Source: a virus
DNA length: 38,769 nucleotides
Direction: 5' to 3' (one strand)
Virus record (IMG/VR): IMGVR_UViG_3300031525_000018
Span: 1-38,769 of that record
In this document: piece after piece, positions 12,464 through 31,441 of the stretch
How positions within the stretch are numbered: the first letter of the stretch is position 1
Layout: each line of letters opens with the position of its first letter
Notes under the pieces: generated by a model
Told to the model about the DNA's origin: nothing
The model's database searches: none
What the model saw: the letters and a program-made list of their open reading frames with translations, nothing else
Position numbers and translations under genes: made by a program

Positions 12464-12955
12464 TCAAACCGGCGACACAGGACTTGGCATCCCAGGAGGT
12501 GCGCCCAGGGGAGGCGCTCCCGGTGGCGTAGGCCCTGCCGATGGCCCCATTGGCGCACCTGGTGGGGGTGCTGGGGGTGTAACACCCCCTGGCGGTCCTG
12601 GTGGGGTCGTCCCAGGTGCCAAGCTAGTGATGATCTGCTGCATTATTGCCTGGGGGTCTAGCCCAAGCAGCAGTTGGTCCGCAATCATCCGCACTTTCGA
12701 AATCATGGCCTTAAGCGGAATTTCATCAGGCGTTAAATCCTGGTCAATCAGCGTGGACACGCGTTTCAATTGTGCGTAACGACTCATGCGGTGATCACTC
12801 GGATCTTGGCGATTTGCGGGAGTGCCAGGATTGGCAGGAGGCGCGGATTTGTTGAGCCTGCCCATGAGGGCAGACACATCTGCTTGCTTCATTCCATTGG
12901 GACCACCGACAGCGAAGCCAGCCACTTTGCCTCCAGAACGCAAAAAAAGAGCCAC
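12464..12955 (-). CDS. Late protein with GGK start and proline-rich tail
   Basis: Up to 163 residues. The N-terminal RSGGKVAGFAVGG motif is a short pattern I have seen at the start of phage head-region proteins. A helical middle follows (RYAQLKRVSTLIDQDLTPDEIPLKAMISKVRMIADQLLL), then a ~50-residue Pro/Gly tail. The start is uncertain. The longest frame begins at GTG 12955, inside the 3' arm of a strong terminator. GTG 12925 follows GGAGG closely, and ATG 12892 is also possible. It lies between the portal block and the scaffold, so a head-assembly role is likely. Confidence 0.65.
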   Translation of the reverse strand: MALFLRSGGKVAGFAVGGPNGMKQADVSALMGRLNKSAPPANPGTPANRQDPSDHRMSRYAQLKRVSTLIDQDLTPDEIPLKAMISKVRMIADQLLLGLDPQAIMQQIITSLAPGTTPPGPPGGVTPPAPPPGAPMGPSAGPTPPGAPPLGAPPGMPSPVSPV

Positions 12956-12994
12956 GGCAGGCTCTGCGCTGGAATGCAGAGATTGCCGTGGCTC
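12942..12994 (-). terminator. Strong intrinsic terminator inside the late operon
   Basis: Read on the minus strand, GAGCCACGGCA (12994-12984) pairs perfectly over 11 bp with TGCCGTGGCTC (12959-12949). An inner CTCTGC/GCAGAG stem nests within it, and seven T residues follow (12948-12942). The plus strand lacks a T tract at the other end, so the signal is directional. It lies between the 58-residue gene after the portal and the proline-rich late gene, upstream of scaffold and coat. Confidence 0.85.
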
Positions 12995-19152: not shown

Positions 19153-19519
19153 CTGAATCCTTAGCGGCGAGGTTCGCCTTATCCCACTTATACTTCATGT
19201 CGGGTAACTGCACATAATTTTCAAGACAAACCCTAGCCATATTTATATAATATAACTTAGATTCATAGCTCATGCGAATCCAATCGCTTTCAGCAACTGG
19301 ATTCGTGCCATTAACAAAATGCATATACATACGATATGCACAATATAGGATTTCAGCATCCGTAACTTTGAGGCGCTCTGCGCGAGCGACGAGAGCTTCA
19401 TCATTCATCCGATCAATTAAATCTGAGACTTCCCATAGGAAGCTGTCCCACGGCCCCCGACCCTCGTATGATGGGGCGCGTTCCCGTAGGCCCGCTATAG
19501 CTTCTTCAGGCGTTATCAT
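19139..19519 (-). CDS. Small protein of the MITPEEA group (second copy)
   Basis: 126 residues from ATG 19519; ATG 19528 is possible and would add three residues. Starts MITPEEAIAGLRERAP, has a helical DLIDRMNDEALVARAERLKV segment and DAEILYCAYRMYMHFVNGTN, and ends DSDDNS. Its start is embedded in the end of the upstream gene, and its end contains the start of the downstream paralogue. Probably helical and soluble. Function unknown. Confidence 0.75.
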   Translation of the reverse strand: MITPEEAIAGLRERAPSYEGRGPWDSFLWEVSDLIDRMNDEALVARAERLKVTDAEILYCAYRMYMHFVNGTNPVAESDWIRMSYESKLYYINMARVCLENYVQLPDMKYKWDKANLAAKDSDDNS

Positions 19520-25825: not shown

Positions 25826-26107
25826 ATGACATTTGAAACAAAATTGCTGCGTGCGGCTATAGCAGAATTTAGATTACAGACGTGCCCATGTAGCGGTTGC
25901 GAGCATGGCAGAGGTCTTGCGGATGCGCTGGAAATAATGCTCAAACCCATTGAAGCTAGACCAGACGCATTGCAAGCGGCAGTTACCGCCTTTGAACAGG
26001 CGTATTCTGAGCCAATTATTCACCAGACTGGTGCAATTACGAGAACCATTGCGGCTTATCATTCTCAGCTTATAGCATACATGGTTAGCGAAATTTCTTC
26101 GGAATAG
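25826..26107 (+). CDS. Small cysteine-containing early protein
   Basis: 93 residues from ATG 25826; the frame is open to 25808 in the hairpin loop. Contains CPCSGCEHGRGLADALEIML near the N-terminus, a compact cysteine motif, then helical sequence (DALQAAVTAFEQAY; AYHSQLIAYMVSE). Its end overlaps the convergent RusA gene by 23 bp. Function unknown. Confidence 0.65.
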   Translation: MTFETKLLRAAIAEFRLQTCPCSGCEHGRGLADALEIMLKPIEARPDALQAAVTAFEQAYSEPIIHQTGAITRTIAAYHSQLIAYMVSEISSE

Positions 26108-26597
26108 GAAATCCCATTAAAACGCACTCATCATGCGGCATTCCTCGCACTGTAACAATGACACGAGGGCCTTTTTTATCGCGGTGCATATTCACGGTGA
26201 GTTTTTTCACGCGCGAATCTGCAGCATAAAAAACGCCCTGCATCCCGTCTAAAATACATTTCGGGACATTATCGACGTCTTGCGCCACGTTGTACACATC
26301 GAGTATCACGGCGCAATAATACGGCCATTTCCAGCGTAATTCACTCGCTAAGGAAAAGCTCAGAGCATACACCTTATTTTGGTACGTCGCGGCATCTGAG
26401 GCTTTGTACATGCGGCCACGATAGGTTGATTGAGCTGTTTTGACCGCTTGTGGCTTGCGCGAAGCGTTGGCCGAGACGGGCTTGCCAGGGATCTCGAAGA
26501 CGATCGTCCGGCTTGCCCCCCCGTGGTTCTCGGGGTCTTGAGTTTGGATAGCCTTTAAAGCCGTCTTCCCGGCCCGTGAAGGCCCACGAATCCCCAC
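26085..26597 (-). CDS. rusA: RusA-type Holliday junction resolvase
   Basis: 170 residues from GTG 26597. IPGKPVSANASR (36-47) is the RusA start motif. The acidic metal-binding residues are visible in QDVDNVPKCILDGMQGVFYAADSRV: Asp 107, Asp 109 and Asp 127. It cuts four-way junctions formed in recombination and replication before packaging. Last gene of the leftward replication operon. The N-terminal ~30 residues are an unusual extension, so a later start is possible. Its 3' end overlaps a plus-strand gene tail to tail. Confidence 0.9.
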   Translation of the reverse strand: MGIRGPSRAGKTALKAIQTQDPENHGGASRTIVFEIPGKPVSANASRKPQAVKTAQSTYRGRMYKASDAATYQNKVYALSFSLASELRWKWPYYCAVILDVYNVAQDVDNVPKCILDGMQGVFYAADSRVKKLTVNMHRDKKGPRVIVTVRGMPHDECVLMGFPIPKKFR

Positions 26598-26611: not shown

Positions 26612-27442
26612 CTATTCCGAGACTAGCCGAAGCTTGGTAGGCCTTCTAGGCTCGCTCCGCAGATTTCCGCCCGTGAAGTGCAGCTCTTCTCGAAGCAGGC
26701 TCTTCAGGCGAGTGAACCTAGCTGCGCCATCGGTCTGCGAGACATCACAGAACTTCCTGCCGAGTTCTTCGAGGGAGACGTTAGCCGTGACGATGGTTGG
26801 CAACTCAGCACGCATCCTTCGGTCGAGAACGAGATAAATCAAATCCATTTCTTCGGAAATTTTTGAGACGTTATCGACATCATCAAGCACTAAAAGCGGA
26901 GTTTTGCTCAACACGTCTGCCATTTGAGATATTGCGTAAAGACGATCACCGTATTGCCTGTGATTTCTCACCTCGAACATAGTATCAATCAGATTCGCGA
27001 CTCGCCCAGAGATAAAAAAATGCTCGCGAAAATGGTTCAGCATTGCCGTTACGCTGAAGGTCTTGCCACACCCGCTTGGGCCCCAAGCGTAGAAACCTTG
27101 CATCCCACGAACCGCTTTACGTCCTGCCATTTCTGCATCAGCATCCGACACGCTAGGCACTTCCGGTAGATACCTGCAGATGTCACGAACTTCGGCGATC
27201 ATGTCATCCATGGTGGCCTTCGCCTCGAACGTATTGTTGTGCGCGAACACTCTGTGAATTGTAGCCTCTTCGAGGTTTTGCGGAACCGCAGAATTGCGCT
27301 TGGCGCTCACGCGCAGGCTATTACGCAACGACTCTACGTGAGAAGGAGTCTCCTTCTGCCGCGCAAGAAATCGCTGCCCAACCTCCGCAACACTTTGCTC
27401 CGTTATCCCGATTGAAGAGAGTACCTCAGAAAATCTATTCAC
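26612..27442 (-). CDS. DnaC-like AAA+ helicase loader
   Basis: 276 residues. The ATPase core shows Walker A GPSGCGKT (121-128), Walker B LLVLDDVD (183-190), sensor-1 TIVTAN (216-221) and an arginine near RFTRL (242-246). The N-terminal helical part would bind the host replicative helicase. It overlaps the initiator gene as ATGA, the standard lambda O/P-like pairing. No phage helicase is present, so it presumably loads host DnaB at the origin. Confidence 0.9.
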   Translation of the reverse strand: MNRFSEVLSSIGITEQSVAEVGQRFLARQKETPSHVESLRNSLRVSAKRNSAVPQNLEEATIHRVFAHNNTFEAKATMDDMIAEVRDICRYLPEVPSVSDADAEMAGRKAVRGMQGFYAWGPSGCGKTFSVTAMLNHFREHFFISGRVANLIDTMFEVRNHRQYGDRLYAISQMADVLSKTPLLVLDDVDNVSKISEEMDLIYLVLDRRMRAELPTIVTANVSLEELGRKFCDVSQTDGAARFTRLKSLLREELHFTGGNLRSEPRRPTKLRLVSE

Positions 27443-28431
27443 CTTGCGCCCATCGGCGTTTTTGTAGAAACTTTTAGCGCGTCGAGAGCGTCGAGAGCCC
27501 GCTGCATTTCGCCCGAAGATTTATACGCTTCAAATTTACGTTCACGTTCTGCGTCCATCTGCGCTTGTTCCTCGGGCGTGAAGTACGTCGCGTACTTGTT
27601 CCCGCCGCTAGGCGTCCTAGATGCTCGTTGGCTTGGCACGTAGGCGTTCGGCTTGGACGATTCCGGCTTGTAGCTAGACGGTTCAACGCGACTAGGGGCC
27701 ACAGTGCCGAGCGGCACCTCATCGTCCTTGTGTTTGCGAAGGATGCCTTTTGCGTATTTCATCGGGTCTGAGACTTCTGGCTCGCGGCTTAGCGCATCGT
27801 CCACAGCGTAGCGCCAGGAGACGAGTCCAAAGGCCGCTTTGTCCTCCCAGGCTTGGTGCCTGAATTGAGCGATTTTCTCTGGGAGTGCTTTTCCAGACTT
27901 GTAGCGGCGAGAAAGTAAGTGCTTTACTCGTTGCTCGTCTTCGGGCTCAAAAATATGTTCGGGGAAAGAAGGTTTTTCGATTTTCTGTGTGACATTGCGA
28001 CGCGCGTGCAGGGGGGGTGAGGCGTGAGGCTCACCCCCCGTATACTTAGTTGGTTTAGAGTTAAGATCTGTACGTAAGGTTCCCGTTTGTTCCGGGGTGG
28101 TTCCCGGCGTGCTCAAAATCGGTTCCGGGGTGGTTCCCGAAAGTTCCCAACTGGTTCCCGTATTGGCGGCAGAGTAGTCAAGCGAGCCAAAGGCGCGGAG
28201 CATAGAGTTTGGCGAGGCGTAATCGGTTCCCGCCGTGCTTGAAATCGGTTCCCGCATTTCCTCTACCCTCAAGCGTCGAAGGTGGGCGCACACCTCGGAC
28301 TTACGCATACCAACATCATCAAGCTGCAAGTGCTTGATGATGTTCAAAGCACTCACTCTTTTGTTGTCGAGGCGCAGAACAATCGCAACGGCCTTCACTC
28401 GTTTGAAGTCTAATTCGTCGGCTGAAATCAT
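27439..28431 (-). CDS. Replication initiator with internal iterons
   Basis: 330 residues. N-terminal ~60 residues look like a winged-helix DNA-binding domain (FKRVKAVAIVLRLDNKRVSA, then LNIIKHLQLDDVGMRKSEVC). A Thr/Pro/Gly-rich linker (~residues 60-125) is encoded by the GGTTCC repeat array. The C-terminal region (EDEQRVKHLLSRRYKSGKAL ... AWEDKAAFGLVSWRYAVDDALSREP) is helical and typical of phage replication proteins upstream of a DnaC-like gene. The layout parallels lambda O: DNA-binding N-terminus, origin inside the gene, partner-binding C-terminus. The minus-strand AAGGGAG before its start is paired in the hairpin at 28441-28469. Confidence 0.75.
   Translation of the reverse strand: MISADELDFKRVKAVAIVLRLDNKRVSALNIIKHLQLDDVGMRKSEVCAHLRRLRVEEMREPISSTAGTDYASPNSMLRAFGSLDYSAANTGTSWELSGTTPEPILSTPGTTPEQTGTLRTDLNSKPTKYTGGEPHASPPLHARRNVTQKIEKPSFPEHIFEPEDEQRVKHLLSRRYKSGKALPEKIAQFRHQAWEDKAAFGLVSWRYAVDDALSREPEVSDPMKYAKGILRKHKDDEVPLGTVAPSRVEPSSYKPESSKPNAYVPSQRASRTPSGGNKYATYFTPEEQAQMDAERERKFEAYKSSGEMQRALDALDALKVSTKTPMGAR
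28040..28077. other. AT-rich stretch beside the iterons
   Basis: An A/T-rich run with poor G+C content relative to its surroundings lies directly next to the first GGTTCC repeat. Next to iterons this is the expected place for DNA unwinding. Weak evidence alone. Confidence 0.45.
28078..28254. repeat. Iteron array, probable replication origin
   Basis: Nine copies of an 8-mer close to GGTTCCCG start at 28078, 28088, 28099, 28121, 28132, 28142, 28153, 28225 and 28247. Steps are 10, 11, 22, 11, 10, 11, 72 and 22 bp, close to whole helical turns, so the copies share one face of the DNA. They fall in two different reading frames of the initiator gene, so the spacing is kept for DNA, not protein. 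Longer shared blocks include a 17-bp unit at 28090 and 28123. Known phage and plasmid origins often use such arrays as initiator sites. Confidence 0.75.
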
Positions 28432-28439
28432 GCTCTAGC

Positions 28440-28580
28440 GGGCTCCCTTATGGCACAAGGAAAGAAGCCTACGAGCTGCGAAACCATAAATAGTATTACG
28501 TACTTTTGGTTCTGGGTGGGAGCGTAGACGGCTCTCTCTCATAAAAGACATCGGTTTCCACCCGGTGTCTTTTTGCATTT
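28440..28580 (+). ncRNA. Structured element U1 (candidate small RNA)
   Basis: First of two related elements. Order on the plus strand: hairpin GGCT...CCTT/AAGG...AGCC (28441-28469); a stem CCTAC with a conserved bulge, then GAAACCA/TGGTTC (28480-28512) closing with GTGGG; a GAGC/GCTC hairpin; and a terminator AAAAGACA-T-CGG/CCG-G-TGTCTTTT with a T run (28543-28574). A weak TTGAAG-17-AATCAT promoter lies just upstream. It could instead encode a 25-residue peptide (28450-28527), but no ribosome site is present. On the minus strand the same stretch is the leader of the initiator mRNA. Strand is therefore not certain. Confidence 0.5.
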
Positions 28581-28595
28581 GCAAGGTTGGTTGAT

Positions 28596-28612
28596 AAGGT
28601 CTGCAAGACCTT
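28596..28612. other. Short hairpin between the two elements
   Basis: Perfect 7-bp stem AAGGTCT/AGACCTT with loop GCA, in the spacer between U1 and U2. No T tract on the plus strand. It could separate the two units or act in the minus-strand leader. Confidence 0.5.
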
Positions 28613-28629
28613 GGTTGCGGTGATTGCTC

Positions 28630-28785
28630 AATGGGCTTCCTATCTCAGCAAGGAGAGAAGCCACCGACTTGCGAAAACGTAAGATGTAACATATACTTAA
28701 GTGGTCTTACGTTTTCGGTGGTTCGGGGGCGGTGGACTAAGTTCTAAGAAAAGCATCGGTTTGCAGCCGGTGTTTTTCTGCATTT
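28630..28785 (+). ncRNA. Structured element U2 (candidate small RNA)
   Basis: Second unit, same order as U1: GGCTTC/GAAGCC hairpin with inner TCTC/GAGA (28634-28662); CCAC, a 7-nt bulge, then a perfect 13-bp stem CGAAAACGTAAGA/TCTTACGTTTTCG (28672-28684, 28705-28717) closing with GTGG; a GGGGGC region; and terminator AAAAGCATCGG/CCGGTGTTTTT (28749-28777). Stems correspond to U1 although their bases differ (compensating changes), while the bulge and GCGAAA are conserved. A 38-codon frame (28631-28747) shares QG.KP..CE with the U1 frame, so a peptide origin is not excluded. Confidence 0.5.
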
Positions 28786-28837: not shown

Positions 28838-29056
28838 CTAGAACGGCAGATGGTACGTCTCCAGCGCATCATCCCCAAGCGCCTCTAACGAGAGCCGATA
28901 CCGCTCTGGTGGCGATTCACCGTCAAGCTCGGCCTTCGCCCGGTAGAGCATCCTCGGATTGATGACAAACCCACATGGCTCGACAATATCGTAGGCATAG
29001 GACTTCGCCGTATCGCGATGCACGTTGCGAATGACTATAACTTCTGAAAAATCCAA
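28838..29056 (-). CDS. Small protein with TTG start behind a terminator
   Basis: 72 residues. TTG 29056 has a very strong ribosome site GGGGAGG 9 nt upstream, but that site sits in the 3' arm of the hairpin at 29065-29095 and the spacer is the eight-T run. Sequence DFSEVIVIRNVHRDTAKSYAYDIVEPCGFVINPRM looks like a compact alpha/beta protein; family not recognised. Expression would need read-through and hairpin opening. Last gene before the tandem elements. Confidence 0.65.
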   Translation of the reverse strand: MDFSEVIVIRNVHRDTAKSYAYDIVEPCGFVINPRMLYRAKAELDGESPPERYRLSLEALGDDALETYHLPF

Positions 29057-29794: not shown

Positions 29795-30463
29795 TCATAG
29801 GCGTTTCGTAAGAAATACCGTGGCTTGAATGACGTCGAGGATAATCTGACGCTCCCAGGGGTGGGGTTCCCACCCATTAGGCTGGGGCACGATGCGTGTA
29901 TTCTCGCGAATCCAATCCTTGAATTTGTTCGCGTCATCATTTGTTTTTCGCTTTGTATTCCACATCGCTTTTAGCTGGTGTATTGCAGGAGGTTCCGGGT
30001 CCTTGGCCTTCTGCGCGCGCTGGATGTTTGGTGATTCCTCGTCGGGGTCTTTGCCGGTTGGAATCCCTAACATCCCTAATAGGCCATATTTCCGCGCGCT
30101 CGTAATGGCCTTATTTACGCCTTTATCGCCCGTATCAATCCCAAGGCCCGGGAATGTCGATGTCCACGTATCGCCAGTTTCGTTATCAATTAAACTAATC
30201 ATCATCACGAATTCCGTGCGAAGGCTGGTCTTCTCTCCTGACATTTCTACATGCCGAATTGAATCTGGAATAACACTCGCAATCGACGTAATTCCAAATT
30301 CTTGGCAAGCCGAATTCACCTCGCTGAATACCTCAGAGGCGCTTGCAAAACAATATTTATGGAATTTATTCTCGCCATTTTTTTCGATCCAGCCGATTTT
30401 TTTCAAAACCTTGGAAATCTTTACCGCGAGACCCTTGGGGCAGATACTCAAATGCTCCGTCAT
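29795..30463 (-). CDS. ERF-family single-strand annealing protein
   Basis: 222 residues. Key features of the ERF superfamily: FHKYCFASASEVFSEVNSAC ... FGITSI near the N-terminus and GDTWTS.FPG.GIDTGDKGVNKAITSARKYGLLGMLGIP in the middle, followed by the usual disordered linker and short helical C-terminus. It pairs complementary single strands during phage recombination. Overlaps the nuclease gene as ATGA, so exonuclease and annealing protein are made together. Confidence 0.9.
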   Translation of the reverse strand: MTEHLSICPKGLAVKISKVLKKIGWIEKNGENKFHKYCFASASEVFSEVNSACQEFGITSIASVIPDSIRHVEMSGEKTSLRTEFVMMISLIDNETGDTWTSTFPGLGIDTGDKGVNKAITSARKYGLLGMLGIPTGKDPDEESPNIQRAQKAKDPEPPAIHQLKAMWNTKRKTNDDANKFKDWIRENTRIVPQPNGWEPHPWERQIILDVIQATVFLTKRL

Positions 30464-31194
30464 AGCACCCCCATTAGCGGATTCTTATTGTTTTCGCAAC
30501 CAGCATACGCACAGAATTTGCACGCGAAGGAAGCGATGTGCGCGGGTGGCACTTCATGGTGAGGCTCGGGTTGGTTTGGACCAGTAACCAAGGCATAGTG
30601 CGCCTGTAGCGCGCGGATACGCGGTGCAAACGTGGATGTCTGGAGCACGAATTCCACCATCTTCCCCGTATTGCGACATACAACCACAATCCTGAATGTG
30701 TCAGATCCAATCTGGATGGCATTCGTACCGGCCTGAATGACATATCGTTCAGCAGGCTCCTTTGGCAGAAAGACATCCTTGTTCCCGGTCGCTTTATTCC
30801 AGCGAGCAACAAACGTCGTTGTCTTCACTTCTATCGGCTGTAATTCTCCTGTAACCGTGTCGCGTAGGATAAAATCAGGATGCCCTACAAGCTCCACACC
30901 GTTATTTAACCCGAAATATTCCGCTTGACGCAAAATCTCAATCGTTGTGCCTGCGTATTTTTGCTCTAACGCTTCGAGGACTTGCTCTTCAAAGTCGACA
31001 CCAATGCGAAATTGCCGCAAGACATCACTACCGAGAGGAAGCATCGGCTTCCCGCTTCGACGTGCCCAGACTTCCCGCGCACATTTCACCAAGTCTGAAC
31101 TATGTAACGCAACTTTGTCCCACGGATCGTTCGCTTCTCGAATTTCGTGCAATGACTCAAACGCGTCTCGGACAAGTGTCGTATCAGCGAACAT
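30460..31194 (-). CDS. Cas4-like PD-(D/E)XK exonuclease with Fe-S cysteines
   Basis: 244 residues from ATG 31194, overlapping the HTH gene by 11 bp; the frame is open to 31263 inside that gene. Nuclease motifs are GHPDFIL (Asp 107) and IEVKTTTF (Glu 122, Lys 124). One cysteine near the N-terminus (Cys 38 in LVKCAREVW) and three at the C-terminus (Cys 225, 228, 233 in CKFCAYAGC) match the Cas4/AddB-style iron-sulfur pattern. It would resect DNA ends for the ERF partner. Not linked to any CRISPR array here. Confidence 0.85.
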   Translation of the reverse strand: MFADTTLVRDAFESLHEIREANDPWDKVALHSSDLVKCAREVWARRSGKPMLPLGSDVLRQFRIGVDFEEQVLEALEQKYAGTTIEILRQAEYFGLNNGVELVGHPDFILRDTVTGELQPIEVKTTTFVARWNKATGNKDVFLPKEPAERYVIQAGTNAIQIGSDTFRIVVVCRNTGKMVEFVLQTSTFAPRIRALQAHYALVTGPNQPEPHHEVPPAHIASFACKFCAYAGCENNKNPLMGVL

Positions 31195-31441
31195 TGAATA
31201 TCTCTTCGTCTGGAAACATAAATATATCGTGCTGCTCGCGTTTACGCTTGAAAAGCTTCCCAAGACGGCGGCGTAAAGTCGGACCTAAAGGCTGCTTGCC
31301 TTGCATGTGCAACGTCACTTTGGATTGCGGTACGCCTGTTAATCTCTGAAGTGCTTGATACGACGCGATATCGTAGGCATCCATCATCTGTTGCAACCTG
31401 TCCGGGGTCAGGTATCCGTAGTTTTTCTCTCGATCACTCAT
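31184..31441 (-). CDS. HTH (Cro/CI-type) transcriptional regulator
   Basis: 85 residues from ATG 31441; the open frame extends to 31600 but the promoter lies inside that extension. The helix-turn-helix is ASYQALQRLTGVPQSKVTLH, then MQGKQPLGPTLRRRLGKLF. The short hydrophobic/acidic tail (IFMFPDEEIF) could dimerise. It is the first gene of the leftward early operon. The dyads TACC-N-GGTA on three promoters are its likely targets. The small size is Cro-like; no partner CI or integrase was found. Confidence 0.85.
   Translation of the reverse strand: MSDREKNYGYLTPDRLQQMMDAYDIASYQALQRLTGVPQSKVTLHMQGKQPLGPTLRRRLGKLFKRKREQHDIFMFPDEEIFNVR

Follow-up and report, generated by a model that had tools for sequence, protein, structure and literature searches.

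What kind of replication control is encoded where a phage initiator gene carries an array of short repeats and is preceded by two structured elements on the opposite strand? The locus lies in the 38,769-base record of an uncultivated phage, the whole of which was analysed and is referred to here as the window (Table 1). On the minus strand the genes run in the order exonuclease-like, Erf-type, small genes, initiator, DnaC-like helicase loader and RusA. No similar DNA was found in the phage collection, single-protein searches with the initiator, loader and terminase as queries returned no matches, and no prophages or hosts were found when these were sought via the capsid in 84,980 genomes.

Table 1 Observed and predicted features of the replication locus and its neighbourhood (positions in the window).
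Feature	Position	Strand	Basis or remark
RusA	26085-26597	-	ORF list and family search
DnaC-like helicase loader, P-like partner	26612..27442	-	phrog_50 E 3e-18; IstB_IS21 above its cut-off; DnaI/DnaC chains in PDB
Replication initiator gene, 330 aa, ATG at 28431	27439..28431	-	ORF
A+T-richer stretch beside array, candidate unwinding element (inferred)	28040..28077	.	sequence, composition
Iteron array, 7 GGTTCC[C/G]G and 2 GTTCC	28078..28254	+	initiator codons ~60-118
Promoter-like site TTGAAG-17-AATCAT, extended -10 TG, pO-like	28403..28431	+	top 0.04% of window positions; prediction only
Unit 1, predicted structured RNA of ~140 nt	28438..28580	+	antisense to initiator leader and ribosome site
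Initiator ribosome-binding site AAGGGAG, 11 nt before ATG	28444..28450	-	covered by unit 1
Intrinsic terminator, unit 1	28543..28578	+	stem 28543-28573, then T-rich run
Weaker promoter-like site TTTGCA-17-TAAGGT (extended -10), for unit 2	28572..28600	+	top 0.18% of window positions; overlaps palindrome
Perfect 17-bp palindrome AAGGTCTGCAAGACCTT, candidate operator at unit 2 promoter	28596..28612	.	
Unit 2, paralogue of unit 1, predicted structured RNA of ~145-175 nt	28631..28785	+	
Intrinsic terminator, unit 2	28748..28783	+	stem ~28748-28777, then T-rich run
Erf-type annealing protein	29795-30463	-	ORF list and family search
Exonuclease-like gene	30460-31263	-	

By its position and architecture the initiator is O-like. 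A low-confidence AlphaFold model gave a small N-terminal helical domain, a disordered linker and C-terminal helices, with pLDDT values of ~75 for residues 1-60 and below 50 for residues 59-158; the codons that carry the repeat array fall in the part modelled as disordered. The protein had no match in Pfam, PHROGs (E 0.01), the PDB or the deposited phages and, since Pfam and PHROGs gave nothing, no match to a plasmid Rep family either. Nor did it match a known O family, as judged from Pfam and PHROGs at E 0.01, and a structure search with the low-confidence model returned no meaningful match.

The preliminary description of this DNA had reported a helically phased GGTTCC array inside the initiator gene, and this was confirmed. 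Every site is on the plus strand: GGTTCC[C/G]G starts at 28078, 28099, 28121, 28132, 28153, 28225 and 28247, and the shorter GTTCC at 28089 and 28143. Their spacings (10, 11, 22, 11, 10, 11, 72 and 22 bp) are approximately multiples of 10.5 bp, with a mean phase vector of 0.93 for the seven GGTTCC[C/G]G sites. These spacings are mostly not multiples of three and the repeats fall in differing codon frames, so coding is not the cause of the pattern. Seven of the eight plus-strand copies of GGTTCC[C/G]G in the 38.8 kb lie in the array and the minus strand has none. The array is the probable core of the origin and, from its composition, the A+T-richer stretch beside it is a possible unwinding element. 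A 10-bp perfect inverted repeat (28012-28039, GGGGGGTGAG/CTCACCCCCC) borders the iteron region next to this stretch. A further perfect inverted repeat of 13 bp with a 7-nt loop (28312-28344, AACATCATCAAGC...GCTTGATGATGTT) was observed in the part of the initiator coding sequence that separates the iterons from the predicted promoter; it is one of only four perfect inverted repeats of at least 11 bp (loop ≤ 24) in the window.

Iterons of the origin within the initiator gene, with a loader gene downstream, are what marks phage initiators of the O type, and both are found here. In lambda four iterons (39034-39118) lie inside O (38686-39585), and the succession of an initiator with in-gene iterons, a DnaC-like loader and RusA corresponds to the O-P layout. 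In P22 the initiator gene, gp18, carries the iterons where it encodes the linker, and the helicase loader comes next. Compared with lambda O and P22 gp18, our phage has the same in-gene origin and loader, whereas the iteron sequence differs and the initiator has no family match.

Two paralogous plus-strand elements upstream of the initiator, each with its own terminator, had also been described, and our comparison bore this out. Local alignment of unit 1 with unit 2 gave a score of 93, against 19.9 ± 3.2 for shuffled sequences (maximum 36, n = 300), and their 37-nt terminators are 84% identical; it should be noted that one terminator scanner missed both terminators and a second detected only that of unit 1. 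Conservation is best in a 5' hairpin (GGGCUyCCU...CAAGGArAGAAGCC), a following CGA..UGCGAAA segment, and the terminator with its loop and the downstream TGCATTT, while the middle of the units varies in sequence and retains a stem. In this second helix all eight pairs are kept despite six changes between the units (P = 0.007, with the register set by hand). The terminators differ by five changes, with 12 of 12 pairs kept on the plus strand versus 10-11 on the minus strand, and this retention is not significant on its own (P = 0.095). G-U pairs on the plus strand become A-C mismatches on the minus strand and, judged from the sequence, these pairs and the T tracts point to plus as the RNA strand.

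Unit 2 includes a perfect 13-bp stem (28672-28684/28705-28717). Compared with dinucleotide shuffles, units 1 and 2 had fold z-scores of -3.0 and -4.9 on the plus strand and of -1.3 and -3.3 on the minus strand. In a fold scan of the whole window unit 2 was the 11th strongest peak and unit 1 fell within the top 4-5% of segments. Fold energy by itself is therefore weak evidence for unit 1, and the case for this unit is carried by paralogy and terminators. The strongest fold of the window is a very stable minus-strand terminator (12951-12992, -28.5 kcal/mol) located between the portal gene and those on the capsid side, and the second strongest relative to composition is at 19216-19365 (minus strand, GC 0.34), amid consecutive short ORFs that repeatedly start with MITPEEAI. 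Searches of the phage collection and of the viral and genome contigs gave no sequence homologue for unit 1 or unit 2. Rfam gave no match at the gathering score and only chance-level microRNA hits at relaxed thresholds, while pattern scans of viral contigs with the conserved RNA core were at first empty and later gave a single chance hit, the 147-kb contig in question having no further similarity; the terminator pattern had no match in the genome contigs.

The first element had been placed antisense to the leader of the initiator mRNA, over its ribosome site, and this held, since the minus-strand AAGGGAG is complementary to plus-strand positions 28444-28450, within the 28441-28469 hairpin of unit 1. 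Unit 2 was also predicted to pair in trans with the leader (-154 kcal/mol, versus -72 ± 6 kcal/mol when unit 2 was shuffled), a necessary consequence of its similarity to unit 1. Of the plus-strand promoter-like sites in the region, the best-scoring one has its -10 element over the initiator start codon and a predicted start near 28438. Both promoter-like sites are consensus matches and predicted only. The palindrome at the second site has no other copy in the window at ≤ 3 mismatches. No cII-like target overlaps either unit, and the nearest upstream ORF ends at 28838, past both terminators, and has no Pfam or PHROGs family match.

These features recall lambda OOP, a self-terminating RNA of 77 nt whose promoter, pO, is found beside the first codon of O and drives transcription away from O, opposite to pR. 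OOP is antisense to cII, and replication too is influenced by the activity of pO (PMC3349717, PMC3985674). OOP was reported to have no effect on O-P mRNA stability, and pO is thought to act via transcription interference (PMC3985674). The likeness lies in a predicted short self-terminating RNA directed away from an O-type gene and in a promoter -10 beside or over the O-type start codon, which is here a consensus prediction. Unlike OOP, the units are present in two tandem copies of ~140-175 nt, have no cII-like gene beneath them, cover the initiator ribosome site more fully (unit 1) and are unrelated in sequence. The 33-bp lambdoid oop/pO sequence (PMC3349717) had 0 matches at ≤ 3 mismatches. 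As both this sequence and the cII overlap are absent, the units are OOP-like in layout and not members of the lambdoid OOP group. The preliminary description knew of no such tandem-element design in a lytic-type phage; this is not supported for the layout, which is known from lambda OOP, and it stands for the duplication, which is apparently new as far as searched.

We compared the locus with nine related phages, including G001, which were gathered by capsid similarity. The two closest relatives, G002 and G003, replicate by a primase-helicase instead. G002 has a phased TTTCCTG array (spacings 11, 10 and 11; L096 3565-3597) near the 3' end of the primase-helicase gene, which is possibly its origin. 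The initiator of G004 is ~30-33% identical to ours across residues 2-82 and has in-gene iterons of its own (GGACGC, spacings 11, 11, 12, 22 and 24). Approximately 100-135 nt upstream of it is a strong terminator (L100 16062-16087) with a T tract on the plus strand only, and the segment between terminator and initiator is among the strongest folds of that genome and plus-biased, the upstream segment having z-scores of -5.1 on plus versus -2.3 on minus. We rejected this element as a homologue of our units, as its fold differs and only the layout is common to both. O-like genes with in-gene phased repeats were also found in G001 (L084 4288-5169; TGGGTAGCATCTGGGT, spacings 33 and 22) and G005 (L101 657-1316; CAGTAGC, spacings 22, 11, 33 and 22), neither with detectable similarity to our initiator. 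In G001 there is no plus-strand terminator upstream of the O-like gene and the structured strand there is mainly minus (z = -5.8), and we therefore rejected this structure as support; in G005 an HNH-like gene is directly upstream, without an equivalent element. Initiators with in-gene iterons and a loader thus form a recurring module whose iterons differ; in two of four cases (our phage and G004, not G001 and G005) the initiator comes with a divergent RNA-like element. Related phages that keep the initiator gene without the stems had been named as evidence against the locus as described: the O-like genes of G001 and G005 do lack the element, but they are dissimilar to our initiator, and the phage with a similar one, G004, has an element.

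We give a probability of roughly 0.6 to the reading that this is a lambda-type O-P replication module with a tandem pair of OOP-like self-terminating RNAs which restrains the initiator or the transcription that activates the origin. The iterons, the loader, the paralogy, the terminators and the leader complementarity are seen in the sequence itself. An O-like initiator with the origin iterons in its own gene would act together with the helicase loader that follows it, and short self-terminating RNAs, tandemly duplicated, would be transcribed away from the initiator gene. The RNA of unit 1 would start at the promoter whose -10 lies over the initiator start codon and run for ~140 nt, through the complement of the initiator ribosome site, to its terminator, and unit 2 would repeat the same design upstream. 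The promoters, the expression of the units and any effect on initiator or origin are inferred. The most probable role of the units is a cis-acting restraint on both initiator expression and origin-activating transcription, exerted through antisense pairing with the leader, promoter collision or the two together, routes which the evidence does not separate; early replication would thereby be limited once genome copies accumulate. Since OOP was reported to leave O-P mRNA stability unchanged in lambda, it cannot be taken for granted that the initiator is subject to an antisense effect here. It is doubtful that the duplicated antisense pair silences initiator translation directly, which would be a plasmid-style negative feedback unused by lambda OOP, with the two copies acting separately, one on the ribosome site and one under the candidate operator palindrome.

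Other readings of the same structures have to be weighed against the tandem OOP-like pair. The units might be phage small RNAs which act in trans on host or other phage mRNAs or on a protein, their overlap with the initiator leader being incidental. The conserved 5' hairpin, adjoining segment and terminator around a variable paired middle are as in binding-module RNAs, two copies would raise the dose, and the initiator ribosome site lies outside unit 2; however, the start of unit 1 coincides exactly with the initiator start region and in G004 the same place is taken by a non-homologous element, neither of which is expected of position-independent RNAs, and we consider this reading unlikely. 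We judge it distinctly unlikely that the structures instead function within the initiator mRNA of the minus strand, whether as leader hairpins, attenuators or short leader ORFs, with the plus strand untranscribed. The T tracts are on the plus strand, where G-U pairs are lost on reading the minus strand, and plus folds better in both units and clearly so in G004, although the minus strand also folds (z = -3.3 in unit 2) and is the structured strand upstream of the O-like gene of G001 (z = -5.8). Both units carry a minus-strand ORF starting MQK[D/N]TG[W/C]KPM.F (28435-28580 and 28700-28785), as would follow from their nucleotide similarity. We rejected these ORFs as coding leader peptides, as 3 of the 12 first residues differ, the sequences then diverge and there is no upstream ribosome site.

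Copy control of the plasmid type, with initiator synthesis inhibited by antisense RNA and handcuffing by the iterons so that a low-copy episomal prophage is maintained, is very improbable. The locus does combine iterons with an antisense element that covers the initiator ribosome site, which is the likeness (predicted as regards the RNA) to CopA/RNAI-type and iteron plasmids, and some phages with RepA or RNA-based origins are extrachromosomal (PMC7157519). Against this, the initiator has no plasmid Rep family match, none of the proteins scanned (part of the genes) was identified as a partition protein or integrase, and the exonuclease, Erf, loader and RusA neighbours form a lytic replication-recombination block in a phage gene order. 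The preliminary description had taken the plasmid layout as the closest; in its parts and their order the locus, with its predicted promoter and RNAs, corresponds to lambda O-P with OOP.

With the layout itself known, the tandem duplication appears to be the new part, as far as searched, and the lack of a cII-like target beneath the RNAs is a second new feature; together they are why the locus merits follow-up. On sequence grounds we predict that the units act on the initiator leader and the origin, either as OOP-like antisense RNAs or as promoters. The influence of OOP/pO on lambda replication beyond cII has been called unexplained or obscure (PMC3349717, PMC3985674). The same geometry in unrelated sequence, without a cII overlap and here in two copies, would point to the origin itself as what the divergent RNA serves. 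If this is true, a family of uncultivated phages with OOP-like geometry would offer a comparative handle on the old OOP/pO question.
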